IMG/VR virus record: IMGVR_UViG_3300025806_000055
Coordinates: 1-44,684 of that record
Strand: one strand, 5' to 3'
DNA length: 44,684 bases
Source: a virus
Shown here: one piece after another, positions 10,947-39,794 of the stretch
How positions within the stretch are numbered: position 1 is the first letter of the stretch
How the letters are laid out: the number at the start of each line of letters is the position of its first letter
Position numbers and translations under genes: made by a program
The notes under the pieces: generated by a model
The model's database searches: none
Told to the model about the DNA's origin: nothing
Seen by the model: the letters and a program-made list of their open reading frames with translations, nothing else

Positions 10947-10954
10947 TATTTATA
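10947..10954 (-). promoter_or_regulatory. Late promoter TATAAATA upstream of hsp20
   Basis: Exact late box on the minus strand, overlapping the stop region of the upstream small gene, with a leader of about 95 nt before the hsp20 ATG at 10847. Confidence 0.5.
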
Positions 10955-11204
10955 CTCGAATACCGAGTTTTTTTAAATATTCTTCAGCGTCATCTTCAGA
11001 ATCAAACAGAGGACCTTCCATTCTACCTTTAACAAAGATAGCGTGACCGCCTCGGCTTTGAGCCCATCTAATTGAAATCTTTCCAGCTTTAAACTTTTTC
11101 TTAAGATCTGAATTCATCGCATTTGTCCTTTTATCCATCGCTTTTTGTTGAGCTGGAGTATAAGCAATACGCAATCCCTCTAAATATTGTTTAAAACTTT
11201 TCAT
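10950..11204 (-). CDS. Small basic protein with T4 capsid-targeting-like N-terminus
   Basis: An 84-residue basic protein. Its opening MKSFKQYLEG closely resembles the MKTYQEFIAE capsid-targeting sequence of T4 internal proteins II and III, which is removed by the gp21 protease. The P3 residue here would be Tyr rather than Ile or Leu, so cleavage is less certain than targeting. The rest (AQQKAMDKRTNAMNSDLKKKF, IRWAQSRGGHAIFVKGR, DAEEYLKKLG) is a basic helix followed by a small alpha/beta unit. It directly follows two other candidate internal proteins. No enzymatic family is recognised. Confidence 0.65.
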   Translation of the reverse strand: MKSFKQYLEGLRIAYTPAQQKAMDKRTNAMNSDLKKKFKAGKISIRWAQSRGGHAIFVKGRMEGPLFDSEDDAEEYLKKLGIRV

Positions 11205-11206
11205 TT

Positions 11207-11548
11207 CTAATAATCAAATGGTGGTGTGGTAATCTTGCTATTTTGTGTAGCATACCAAGTACCTTTTACCATCCAATAATGATGCTTATCAGTTACTAGC
11301 ACCCAGAATTCTCCTTTAGGAATAGGTGCTGTAGCTTTCTTAAATGTCTTCGTAACAGGTGCTCCACTTGGCCAATTATCAGAAGCCTTTTCTGCAGGAC
11401 TGACTGAGTTCTCTCCATTATTAATAGCAATTACAAGTTTCGAACCTTTGTAATCAGTTTGAAAATCAAGGTACTCGGCCGGAGCTTTCTTTGATACTTC
11501 TGTTAAAGCCTGCCTTTGATTAGGAAGTAAATATTTCTCAGTACTCAT
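11207..11548 (-). CDS. Candidate internal head protein A
   Basis: A 113-residue protein of unknown fold. Its first ten residues, MSTEKYLLPN, are identical to those of the next gene upstream (start 11923) and the two then diverge. Residues 15-17 read LTE, a match to the (I/L)-x-E rule of T4-type gp21 prohead protease, and the sister protein has LDE at exactly the same place. The mature part is rich in Lys, Thr and Trp (WVLVTDKHHYWMVKGTWYATQNS) and is probably beta-rich. A TATAAATA box 5 nt before the ATG marks it as late. A packaged, processed internal protein is the best inference; the function after injection is unknown. Confidence 0.65.
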   Translation of the reverse strand: MSTEKYLLPNQRQALTEVSKKAPAEYLDFQTDYKGSKLVIAINNGENSVSPAEKASDNWPSGAPVTKTFKKATAPIPKGEFWVLVTDKHHYWMVKGTWYATQNSKITTPPFDY

Positions 11549-11561
11549 ACTATTATTTATA
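11519..11561. repeat. Duplicated late-promoter plus leader-peptide cassette, copy 1
   Basis: 43 nt running from TATAAATA through the tenth codon match 11894-11936 with four substitutions, all silent or non-coding. Similarity ends abruptly after the tenth codon. Confidence 0.85.
11554..11561 (-). promoter_or_regulatory. Late promoter TATAAATA
   Basis: Exact late box, 5 nt before the ATG at 11548; part of the duplicated cassette. Confidence 0.65.
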
Positions 11562-11572
11562 TTTATTAAAGA

Positions 11573-11923
11573 TTAATTATCATTGCTACCTTGAGTATAT
11601 AAATTAGTAAAGAACCAGTACGCTAATGTATCTTTTTTAAATGGATTCTTTGGTTCTTTATCACCATTATATCCAGCGCTATATGCTTTATCATATGGTT
11701 TTTTATACATTAAATCTTCAAGTGGACCTACTAAAGAAGTGGCTATTTTGTTCCATAGATTATTGGTATCTTTAGAGGTTGCTTTTGTTTTAGGAGCATC
11801 ATTAATTAGTTTCAGAACCTCTTCTTTTTTCTTTGGAATTGTAATTGATTCTTTAATAGATTCGGTTTTAGATTCATCTAAACGCTTCTTCTCATTAGGC
11901 AGTAAATATTTTTCAGTGCTCAT
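11573..11923 (-). CDS. Candidate internal head protein B
   Basis: A 116-residue protein that shares MSTEKYLLPN with its downstream neighbour and has the protease-like site LDE at residues 15-17. The remainder is unrelated to the neighbour: a Lys/Ser/Thr-rich linker (SKTESIKESITIPKKKEEVLK) then a helical, aromatic C-terminus (PFKKDTLAYWFFTNLYTQG). The same tag on two unrelated bodies is what a transferable targeting signal looks like. A TATAAATA box lies 5 nt before the ATG, and RegA ends 16 nt upstream. The packaged-protein role is an inference by analogy with T4 IPI-IPIII. Confidence 0.65.
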   Translation of the reverse strand: MSTEKYLLPNEKKRLDESKTESIKESITIPKKKEEVLKLINDAPKTKATSKDTNNLWNKIATSLVGPLEDLMYKKPYDKAYSAGYNGDKEPKNPFKKDTLAYWFFTNLYTQGSNDN

Positions 11924-11936
11924 GCTATTATTTATA
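11894..11936. repeat. Duplicated late-promoter plus leader-peptide cassette, copy 2
   Basis: Partner of 11519-11561; the preserved peptide with silent differences indicates selection on the amino acids and the promoter. Confidence 0.85.
11929..11936 (-). promoter_or_regulatory. Late promoter TATAAATA
   Basis: Exact late box, 5 nt before the ATG at 11923, near the 3' end of the regA gene. Confidence 0.65.
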
Positions 11937-26934: not shown

Positions 26935-28170
26935 TTAAACAACTGGCGTAGTGCCATTGATGTTAGTAACAAGGAACCTACGGAAGTAAGGGTTGTTAGC
27001 AGTACCGGCTGGCTTACTGGTTGGTCCACTAATAGGATCATGAGCCATTGGGTTAGCAGCAAGACCATAACGAGTCTTAAAGCCGATCTTAGGCTGGAAG
27101 CTGTTCTCGTCAACGGCGCGAACCATTGTAAGAGGAACGTATGGGCAGTAGTAAATACCAGCATCATACGAGTTAGCACCTTTGTAACCAACGGTAGCGT
27201 AATCATCAATTGCATATGGATCAACATATACCTTAATGCGGCCATTGATAAGACCAGCGAATGTGTTACCGGTTGTGTCAACGTTTAAGTTGGACGCGAT
27301 AGCTGGAGCATAGTCGAGAACGCCTGCAGCTGCAAGAGCAGAAGCAACGTTTGAAGAGCAGATAACATAGTTACCTTTTCCACGACGAGTACCTTTAGCA
27401 ATCTCATTGGATTCAAGCTCAAGTTGGAAGAGAAGTGATTTGAACTTCTCAACAGCCCAACGGCCATCAGCATCGGTATCTAAATCAAAAGTACCGTCAG
27501 CACCGCCAACGTCATTTTGGAAACCTTGAACCGCCGCGGTATTAATTGAATCAATAACTTCGCGGTTGATTTCAGCAAGGATCTCAGTGCTAAGAATATT
27601 AGCAAGTTCTGCTTCAGCATCAAGACCGTGAATGGCCTTGAGGTCTTGAGCAAGTTCCATTGAGTACTCAGCTTTAAGAGCGCGTGTCTTAGCTTCAACA
27701 ACAACTTTCTCGATAGTGAAACCCATGTCCTTAGTAATGTTGCCTTCACCAATTGAAGTAGAGGTAGAAGGAGCGAATTGATCGATAGTATCGAAAAGAG
27801 CTTCGTCATCATTAGTTTTATCAACAGGAGATGCATCAGCGCTATTATAACGAGACTTCATCGCGAAGATGAGACCAGTAGGACCGGACATTGGCTGAAC
27901 ACCACAAACATCATAAGCGATAAGGCTTGGCATTGCACGACGTACAAGGCTGATGAGTACTGGATCCCAGTTATCGGTACCAGCTGCAACGTTTGAAGGA
28001 GTTTCCTCACTAAGGTATTGAGATTGGCCACGAGCTTCGGCAAGTGCCTTCTCTTGGTTTTCTAACATAACTGCAGTTACTGCTTTGCGATGGTTATCGG
28101 CGAAGGCAGGTGCATCGGCGCTCTCAAGAATGGGAGCCCACTTTTTTTCTAGTTCTTCTGAATTAAACAT
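26935..28170 (-). CDS. 23: Major capsid protein gp23
   Basis: A 411-residue HK97-fold capsid protein homologous to T4 gp23 (521, with T4's insertion reduced). LVRRAMPSLIAYDVCGVQPMSGPTGLIFAM, VEAKTRALKAEYSMELAQDLKAIHGLDAEAELANIL, VGYKGANSYDAGIYYCPYVPL and FQPKIGFKTRYG are the family signatures. QYLSEETPSN places an (I/L)-x-E prohead protease site at LSE (53-55), equivalent to T4's LTE at residue 65, so the mature chain should start at Glu56. The late box TATAAATT ends 6 nt before the ATG. Confidence 0.98.
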   Translation of the reverse strand: MFNSEELEKKWAPILESADAPAFADNHRKAVTAVMLENQEKALAEARGQSQYLSEETPSNVAAGTDNWDPVLISLVRRAMPSLIAYDVCGVQPMSGPTGLIFAMKSRYNSADASPVDKTNDDEALFDTIDQFAPSTSTSIGEGNITKDMGFTIEKVVVEAKTRALKAEYSMELAQDLKAIHGLDAEAELANILSTEILAEINREVIDSINTAAVQGFQNDVGGADGTFDLDTDADGRWAVEKFKSLLFQLELESNEIAKGTRRGKGNYVICSSNVASALAAAGVLDYAPAIASNLNVDTTGNTFAGLINGRIKVYVDPYAIDDYATVGYKGANSYDAGIYYCPYVPLTMVRAVDENSFQPKIGFKTRYGLAANPMAHDPISGPTSKPAGTANNPYFRRFLVTNINGTTPVV

Positions 28171-28217: not shown

Positions 28218-29663
28218 TTACTCGGAGAATTTCTTCCCTTTGCTAATAGCACTTAAATAATTTTGCATTGCTTTGGAAACCTTTGGCTCATCAGAGCTGG
28301 CGGCTTCTTCAACAATAGTTTCTGTGGTTGAATAAGAATCTTCATCAGACTCTTCTTCGGTTTCTTCTGTAATTGACTCAGTACCTTCAAAGTAGAAGCC
28401 CTTAAGAGTATTAATACTCTCACGGAATTTATCTTCACCTTCAAAATCAACGTTCTCAGCCAATGTTTTTAGTTTTTCTACTTGAGTTTCAACAAGACCT
28501 TCGCATGACTCAGCAATAACCTTTTCACGAGTTAGTGCATCAACCTTATCGGCCAATTCATCAGCGATTGCGCTTGTCTTATCAAAGTCCTCTTTAATTT
28601 GGGCAACTTCACTTTCCAATTGCTCGAAAAGATCAACCTTAGTATCAGGAACTTCAATATAGTTCTCAACAAAGAGAGTCTTAAGTGAAGACATAAAGTC
28701 TTCAGCAATAGAAGTACGTAGAGAAGTTTCAATAGCAACTGAATTTTCCTTAGCCCACTCAGATACTGCGTAGGTTAAATACTCATCAACTTGCTCTGAT
28801 AAAGCTGAGCTCATTGTCTCAACTTCTTCAGTTAGTTTCTCATCATATTCAGCTTGGATCTTCTCCTTAGCTTCAGCGATTTGTGAACGAACTTCAGTTT
28901 CAAAAATAAGAGCAGCCTTGGCTTTAAAGCCTTCGGTAAGGTTTTCTTCTGACTCAATTAAACGTTTAATATCGTCGGTTTCAACCGTAATAGCATCTTC
29001 CTTTTTAACTTTCTTTTCGGACTTTACGTCTTCTTCTTCGTCTTCTTCTTCGTCTTCCTCGTCGGAATCCATTTCTTCTTCGTCGTCGGAATCTTCATCA
29101 GATTCTTCTTCCTCTTCGTCATCGGATTCTTTCTTAGTAGCTTTCTTAGCTTCTTCAATCTCTTCTACTTCTTCAGTAGATTCAACTTCAGCGGCTTCTT
29201 CAATCTCTTCTACTTCTTCAGTAGATTCAACTTCTTCAGTTTGCTCAGCAACTACTTCTTCAGCTTGCTCAACAGAACCTTCAACGATTTCTTCGGTTTC
29301 CTCAACGGCTACCACTTCTTCGCTAATTTCTTGTTCTTCCATTGTTTCTTGTTTGTTAGGATGTTGTTCACTTATTTCCATTTCGGATTTAGTTCGTGCA
29401 TTTCTGCGTTGTACTAAATAATCTTCAATCTCATTGACATCCTCACTAATTTCATTACTCTCATTATAGATCGCAATATCTTCAGCGGTTTCTTCGGTTT
29501 CTTCGACAGATTCTTCAATAGAATCATTGAATGTTTCCTCAGAGTCAGAGGCTTCTTCACTTATTTCCAAATTAGGAATTTCCTCTAACGTGTCAAGAGA
29601 ATCTAAGTCAGATTCGACAATGTCGAAAACATCATATTCTTCGTTTAATATATTATTAGACAT
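28218..29663 (-). CDS. 22: Prohead core scaffold protein gp22, with long acidic N-terminus
   Basis: 481 residues against about 270 in T4. The C-terminal 260 residues (DDIKRLIESEENLTEGFKAKAALIFETEVRSQIAE to KAMQNYLSAISKG) are helical and match gp22 scaffolds, with several (I/L)-x-E protease sites. The N-terminal 220 residues are dominated by Glu and Asp, with EEEEESDEDSDDEEEMDSDE and a tandem EVESTEEVEEIEEA repeat. The scaffold is degraded by gp21 to peptides that stay in or leave the head. The acidic extension may help core assembly or later DNA-competing charge. It lies between genes 21 and 23 as in T4. Confidence 0.9.
   Translation of the reverse strand: MSNNILNEEYDVFDIVESDLDSLDTLEEIPNLEISEEASDSEETFNDSIEESVEETEETAEDIAIYNESNEISEDVNEIEDYLVQRRNARTKSEMEISEQHPNKQETMEEQEISEEVVAVEETEEIVEGSVEQAEEVVAEQTEEVESTEEVEEIEEAAEVESTEEVEEIEEAKKATKKESDDEEEEESDEDSDDEEEMDSDEEDEEEDEEEDVKSEKKVKKEDAITVETDDIKRLIESEENLTEGFKAKAALIFETEVRSQIAEAKEKIQAEYDEKLTEEVETMSSALSEQVDEYLTYAVSEWAKENSVAIETSLRTSIAEDFMSSLKTLFVENYIEVPDTKVDLFEQLESEVAQIKEDFDKTSAIADELADKVDALTREKVIAESCEGLVETQVEKLKTLAENVDFEGEDKFRESINTLKGFYFEGTESITEETEEESDEDSYSTTETIVEEAASSDEPKVSKAMQNYLSAISKGKKFSE
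29149..29234. repeat. 45-bp tandem duplication in gene 22
   Basis: A 41-nt block at 29149-29189 is repeated exactly at 29194-29234 (period 45, in frame), encoding two copies of an EVESTEEVEEIEEA-like peptide. No change between the copies suggests a recent slippage event. Confidence 0.85.
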
Positions 29664-29782: not shown

Positions 29783-30439
29783 TTATAAATCAATTGAAAT
29801 ATCCTTAAGGAAGGATGAGAACAATTGTTGTTGTTGCTCTTCTAATTGATTTAAAGAAAGTTTGTCGGCTTTAGCTTTAATATGCTCTGCCGCCTTTGAA
29901 ACGATTTGGTTTCCTTCAAAGAAGTACTCGACGCCTTCCATAATACCATTTACAAATGCAGATGGCGCTGAAGGATCTTGTACAATATCAACCGTTGCTA
30001 GAATAAAGTCTTCGTTAACAACATCAACGCCTTGGCGATTTTTTGATACACTGCCCATTCCCCGTGAACTAACACCAAGCTGGCACCCGCCTTCAAGTAA
30101 TCCCTTAACGATAGTTCCCATTGGAGTATCAAGAATCTTTGCTTTACCAATAACATTGTTACCATTCCAGCTAAGTTCTGTAATACGATGAGATACTTTA
30201 TCCAAATTAATTGAAGGACCTTCAGGATGGTTTAATTCACCAACTGCGCGACCTTTTGCAACGTAATTCTCAACGTATTTTTTAACCGAACCTTCTAGAA
30301 TTGCCTTTGGGTAAATCCTTTTATTATGATTAAGCTGATCGGCTTGCATAAAGATACCTTCGATGATATGGCTCTTTTTACCATCCTTTGTTTCGGTGAG
30401 GTAATTTAGCTCCTCGTTGTGTTCTGTAATTAGTTTCAT
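29783..30439 (-). CDS. 21: Prohead maturation protease gp21
   Basis: A 218-residue herpesvirus-like serine protease homologous to T4 gp21 (212). The catalytic His is in VGELNHPEGP (His71) and the Ser in LGVSSRGMGS (Ser124/125); FILATVDIVQDPSAP is the conserved third region. It cleaves core and shell proteins after (I/L)-x-E and itself has ITE and LTE at its N-terminus. This specificity agrees with sites in gp23 (LSE55) and in the two tagged small proteins at 11207-11923 (LTE17, LDE17). It begins 1 nt after the upstream stop. Confidence 0.95.
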   Translation of the reverse strand: MKLITEHNEELNYLTETKDGKKSHIIEGIFMQADQLNHNKRIYPKAILEGSVKKYVENYVAKGRAVGELNHPEGPSINLDKVSHRITELSWNGNNVIGKAKILDTPMGTIVKGLLEGGCQLGVSSRGMGSVSKNRQGVDVVNEDFILATVDIVQDPSAPSAFVNGIMEGVEYFFEGNQIVSKAAEHIKAKADKLSLNQLEEQQQQLFSSFLKDISIDL

Positions 30440-39786: not shown

Positions 39787-39794
39787 TATTTATA
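39787..39794 (-). promoter_or_regulatory. Late promoter TATAAATA for genes 13-15
   Basis: Exact late box, 5 nt before the ATG at 39781. The sequence TATAAATAATAGTATG is identical to that before the 11548 gene. Confidence 0.68.

Follow-up and report, generated by a model that had tools for sequence, protein, structure and literature searches.

The window, by which we mean the whole 44,684-base stretch of this virus record, is a fragment of a T4-like phage and codes for the gp21 protease, gp22, gp23, RegA, clamp loader and sliding clamp. The nearest relatives of its gp23 (54-59%) are found in Methylophilales phage Melnitz, Stenotrophomonas phage DLP6, and Pelagibacter and Synechococcus phages, from which we take the phage to be marine. 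On the minus strand, two small genes, here called A and B, lie between regA and a third gene, D, followed by hsp20 and DNA polymerase (Table 1). As reported in a first-pass annotation of this DNA, both A and B carry an (I/L)xE motif at residues 15-17, LDE in A and LTE in B. Their predicted mature parts comprise 99 aa (pI 9.2) and 96 aa (pI 9.1), respectively. For gene A, searches of Pfam and PADLOC gave no match, and PHROGs none of note.

The same annotation had pointed to an LSE site in gp23. Predicted cleavage of gp23 does fall after LSE (codons 53-55, 28006-28014), which aligns with ..FLTE↓A of T4 gp23, the window phage reading LSE↓E where T4 reads LTE↓A. The gp22 scaffold gene also holds a 45-nt tandem repeat at 29145-29242.

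Table 1. Features of the tag-bearing locus, head genes of the window, and two multi-module proteins of relatives. An arrow (↓) marks the cleavage bond, predicted for the window phage and its relatives.
Feature	Location	Strand	Details and basis
Gene A	11573..11923	-	116 aa; tag MSTEKYLLPNEKKRLDE↓S; predicted internal protein
Gene B	11207..11548	-	113 aa; tag MSTEKYLLPNQRQALTE↓V; predicted internal protein
Gene A propeptide (tag), 17 codons	11873..11923	-	LDE, codons 15-17, at 11873-11881
Gene B propeptide (tag), 17 codons	11498..11548	-	LTE, codons 15-17, at 11498-11506
43-nt cassette of A	11894-11936	-	pairwise comparison
43-nt cassette of B	11519-11561	-	pairwise comparison
TATAAATA late-promoter-like box of A	11929..11936	-	5 nt from ATG
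TATAAATA late-promoter-like box of B	11554..11561	-	5 nt from ATG
Gene D	10950..11204	-	84 aa; T4-CTS-like head MKSFKQYLEG; D body of relatives with MSTEKYLLPHEKKRLAE↓A
gp21 prohead protease, predicted processing enzyme	29783..30439	-	Pfam PF03420 Peptidase_S77, E 1e-42; T4 gp21 alignment
gp22 scaffold, presumed docking core for tag	28218..29663	-	PHROG 237 head scaffolding protein, E 1e-59
gp23 major capsid protein	26935..28170	-	PF07068, E 5e-133; T4 alignment
Multi-module protein, L053	3233-4327		364 aa; [ILV]xE↓A between modules
Multi-module protein, G001	123813-125687		624 aa; [ILV]xE↓A between modules

A shared cassette and its relatives

The cassettes of A and B, each spanning TATAAATA, a 5-nt spacer and codons 1-10 (MSTEKYLLPN), are identical at 39 of 43 nt. 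The four differences consist of one spacer nucleotide and three silent changes (codons 2, 4 and 8), in agreement with the earlier description of silent or non-coding changes only. The two cassettes are the sole dispersed pair of 43-mers with at most four mismatches in the window, the remaining 11 such pairs all belonging to one tandem repeat inside gp22. No such pair occurred in five windows simulated with an order-1 Markov model, so that chance does not account for the cassette.

A scan of IMG/VR with the tag pattern returned 18 stretches, and relaxed scans added more; the relaxed matches L035, L036 and L039, in which the frame stops after 21 codons, were rejected as chance. The tag-bearing stretches fall into three groups: the window genotype, a sister genotype represented by phage G001 (170,716 bases; 209 ORFs), and a more distant clade (contigs 3300037631_003996, 3300010149_001080, 3300038299_000266 and 3300023109_000057). 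Three tagged genes are present in G001, namely A' (108 aa), B' (117 aa) and C (150 aa), with protein C beginning MSTEKYLLPNEKKCLDE↓AKLAGK..., and the distant clade has a tagged C and a tagged D, with the tag form MSTEKYLLPHEKK(R/L)LAE↓A. A search for MSTEKYLLPN-type N-termini in related phages had been suggested as a check; within IMG/VR the tag was found on four mutually unrelated bodies (A, B, C and D), with predicted mature proteins that are small (74-133 aa) and basic (pI 9.1-10.2). When the start-codon requirement was removed from the pattern, matches fell only at these N-termini and at none within other proteins there. When A, B, C, D and the bare tags served as tblastn queries, 50,697 phage records yielded no credible match, and protein C has no relative in genome_contigs. 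Family searches for the four proteins returned nothing informative, the resemblance of C to YafQ/RelE (E 0.016 and 0.049) being too weak for use; PDB sequence matches were judged to be chance, and AlphaFold gave no confident fold for mature C and B (mean pLDDT 51 and 56).

Boundary and constraint of the tag

The unit held in common is a predicted 17-residue propeptide, MSTEKYLLP(N/H)xxxxLxE, which ends at a gp21-type (I/L)xE site. When differently bodied tagged proteins are compared by blastp, homology usually stops at residue 17; the end falls at 17-21 for most pairs, and there are two weak longer tails. For example, G1_B and c3_D align over residues 1-17, as does win_B with each of G1_A, G1_C and c3_D. 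The first-pass annotation had placed the end of similarity after codon 10, which holds between A and B but not among the relatives, where the A' and B' tags of the sister phage are identical over codons 1-15 and homology usually extends to residue 17. Residues 15-17 of the tagged proteins read LDE, LTE, LYE, LDE, LDE and LAE; one variant of D has one residue inserted.

Substitutions were counted over six distinct tag DNAs. Codons 2-10 show eight silent changes to one replacement (expected silent fraction 0.21; P = 3e-5) and codons 11-14 show two silent changes to seven replacements. Codon 15 has silent changes only, codon 16 mostly replacements, and codon 17 is unchanged, leaving Leu15 and Glu17 invariant across tags. 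Such a pattern fits a recognition part followed by a free linker and then by the P3 and P1 residues of a protease site. It should be noted that all tags derive from one ancestral tag, so that the conservation of Leu15 and Glu17 rests on six distinct tag DNAs and not on independent origins.

All nine TATAAATA boxes in the window lie on the coding strand, and in G001 32 of 40 are found no more than 60 nt ahead of a start (usually 5-9 nt), many of them before structural-looking genes. We read these boxes as putative late promoters. The box stands 5-9 nt ahead of many late start codons, both in G001 and in the window, where a further instance lies at 39787-39794; should TATAAATA be the late -10 box, the transcripts would have little or no leader. 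It also precedes A' and C of G001, though not B', and the more distant relatives lack it, their C and D genes having the tag alone. The claim of a duplicated late promoter is therefore apt for A and B, where both boxes are late-promoter-like, but does not extend to the several relatives in which the tag occurs alone. The box is not a fixed part of the cassette, and because promoter and tag are separate in relatives, the tag is apparently kept for its protein sequence.

Exchange of heads, tags and bodies

In the window and in G001, body D starts with MKSFKQYLEG, and in the distant clade the homologous body starts with MSTEKYLLPHEKKRLAE↓A. The former head resembles T4 MKTYQEFIAE in having aromatics at positions 4 and 7, without E10. 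That one body occurs with two heads is, in our view, the strongest argument for the new tag doing the same job as the T4-like head. The head of D in the window ends in YLE-G, which is not a canonical (I/L)xE, and it may be left uncut or be cut at another site.

Bodies have also been reused in larger proteins. Homologues of gene B in relatives include B' (65%) and, in the distant clade, the C-terminal module of a 364-aa protein, where body B directly follows ELDE↓AKAPEEYLDF; the corresponding junction in B' of G001 reads LDEETLSE↓AKVPSDYLDF. An alignment of 288 columns shows the 364-aa protein to be homologous to a 624-aa protein of G001. In each, several [ILV]xE↓A sites lie between modules, suggesting that the two proteins would be cut into pieces in the head, possibly in a polyprotein-like manner.

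The tag DNA itself has a history distinct from that of the bodies. The A' and B' tags of G001 differ at 0 of 45 nt and the two tags of the distant clade at 1 of 45, whereas the orthologous A tags of the window and G001 differ at 7 of 45 nt, in proteins that are 96% identical. Such identity within a genome, set against divergence between orthologous tags, points to exchange between tags in one genome. In contig 3300025874_000266 (L018), exactly 344 bp are missing, equal to the A'-B' spacing, so that the A' promoter and tag are fused to B'; this may be either real variation or an assembly collapse. In G001, a 60-nt stretch after gene C (99678-99737) is identical at 50 of 60 nt to the 3' end of the 84-aa gene D, and appears to be a degenerate duplicate left as a rearrangement scar.

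A predicted capsid-targeting propeptide and its alternatives

The internal proteins of T4 provide the closest comparison. T4 propeptides are 10-19 residues long, with separable targeting and processing residues, and in that of IPIII residues 4 and 7 matter for targeting and residues 8 and 10 for processing (PMC9026906). T4 IPI, IPII and IPIII, which have only the leader in common, are injected and inhibit distinct GmrSD type IV restriction enzymes (PMC12373910). In T4 (CTS MKTYQEFIAE↓A) as here, a short, constant N-terminal propeptide with a gp21 (I/L)xE end is carried by diverse, unrelated small bodies, the genes are late, the mature proteins (predicted ones here) are small and basic, and the phage also codes for gp21 and a scaffold; the propeptide of IPI is longer and diverged, and ends in ITE at 17-19. 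The present tag differs in being 17 residues long and unrelated in sequence (no aromatics at 4 and 7, no E10), and its bodies are unrelated to IPI-III. The T4 CTS pattern M..[FY]..[FY][IL].E has zero matches in the window. The tag therefore has the architecture of the T4 internal proteins but lies outside the T4 CTS family, and docking on the scaffold is proposed by analogy. Inner-head proteins of giant phages (phiKZ, SPN3US) likewise share a propeptide at the N-terminus, and a protease related to gp21 cuts it at an x-x-E site (PMC5694885), the N-terminal 15 residues of the paralogues gp53 and gp54 of SPN3US being identical; these propeptides are mostly far longer, and a tag swap on one body is not mentioned in the part of that paper drawn on here.

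We consider it highly probable that MSTEKYLLP(N/H)xxxxLxE is an alternative type of capsid-targeting propeptide that delivers cargo resembling the T4 internal proteins. A cleavable head-targeting propeptide unlike that of T4 had been proposed in the first-pass annotation, and is favoured by the homology breakpoint at the predicted gp21 bond, by protein-level constraint confined to residues 2-10, 15 and 17, by the swap with a T4-CTS-like head on one body, by the recurrence of body B behind a further LDE↓AK junction, and by late-type promoters and basic mature proteins. We infer the following course of events. Once the late gene is translated, the protein would dock on the scaffold core of the prohead through tag residues 2-10 or thereabouts, with residues 11-14 and 16 as a free linker, and gp21 would cut after Glu17 (P1, with Leu15 at P3) during head maturation. 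The small basic body would remain in the head with the DNA and presumably be injected, like T4 IPI-III, probably to counter early host defence; by this analogy, A-D are likely to be injected counter-defence proteins. Since the tag is a self-contained element that is removed, it could acquire new bodies behind it through recombination in the tag, and LxE↓A junctions might let bodies pass from tags to multi-module proteins or back. The earlier suggestion of a swappable cassette accords with the head swap, the homogenised tag DNA and the clean 344-bp deletion between tag repeats in one contig.

Three other readings were weighed against a targeting propeptide. The repeat could be a DNA recombination or expression module (promoter and start region) that shuffles bodies, with an encoded peptide that has no role. 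The homogenisation of tag DNA within genomes and the 344-bp deletion between tag repeats speak for such a module, yet TATAAATA is missing from B' and from the tagged C and D genes of the more distant clade, and changes are almost all silent in codons 2-10, free in 11-14 and without effect on residues 15 and 17; we regard this reading as improbable. We think it equally doubtful that the tag sends proteins elsewhere, for instance to the membrane, the tail or neck, or a host partner, with a coincidental LxE. Although the tag lacks the aromatics of the T4 CTS, it is exchanged on body D for a T4-CTS-like sequence, its LxE sits at the homology breakpoint, its 17 residues lie inside the T4 range, and the bodies are basic and have late-type promoters.

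Least likely by far is that A, B, C and D are ordinary tandem-duplication paralogues with bodies diverged past recognition. The genes do adjoin in the same orientation, but in a scan of protein N-termini across the G001 proteome the tag pairs reach 66-76, where the shuffle maximum is 41, and the bodies align at background (25-29). Moreover, near-identical tag DNA would imply a recent duplication, yet the bodies share nothing, and the boundary is sharp.

The injected internal proteins of T4-like phages have been found largely through the T4-type leader, and cargo with an MSTEKYLLP leader would be missed. Unrelated adjacent genes with a common N-terminus ending in LxE offer a leader-independent route to head cargo in uncultured phages. 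The proposed propeptide also predicts exact cleavage bonds, names orphan proteins as candidate injected anti-defence factors, and suggests that cargo may evolve via recombination at or within a removable tag.

Other head sequences were encountered in G001. The T4-CTS pattern, which also finds T4 IPII and IPIII, matches five proteins of this phage, where 0.03 would be expected; these clear T4-type CTS heads lie at 116778-123670 and 133392-134134. These proteins (MKSFKEYIGE↓A, MISFKHFISE↓A and others) share with the tagged ones the phage, the presumed head route and the (I/L)xE end. They differ in head sequence, and several are larger and enzyme-like (RNA-ligase-like, cytidylyltransferase-like), which suggests that enzymes may be packaged in the G001 head. 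Among the 209 ORFs of G001, just two N-terminal families exceed the shuffle maximum, the MSTEKYLLP tag and MNLSNKxxxLEDAAxxILE↓G. A similar scan returned only IPII/IPIII from a T4 segment, and nothing restricted to the N-terminus above the shuffle maximum (40 and 42) from Melnitz and HTVC008M. The second family occurs on four adjacent G001 genes (131855-133385; L120) with mostly unrelated bodies and pair scores of 49-81, and is a candidate third head-targeting code; a Cas12c match to one of its proteins (E 0.002) looks like chance. More tentatively, a single phage might use at least three unrelated head-address codes (T4-type CTS, MSTEKYLLPNEKKxLxE and MNLSNKxxxLEDAAxxILE↓G), each with its own docking partner or prohead-core layer, such that cargo sets would be loaded separately and modules exchanged at gp21 junctions. 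The MNLSNK family is also present in the window genotype on L119, contig 3300025652_000075, a single contig that bears both tag types.
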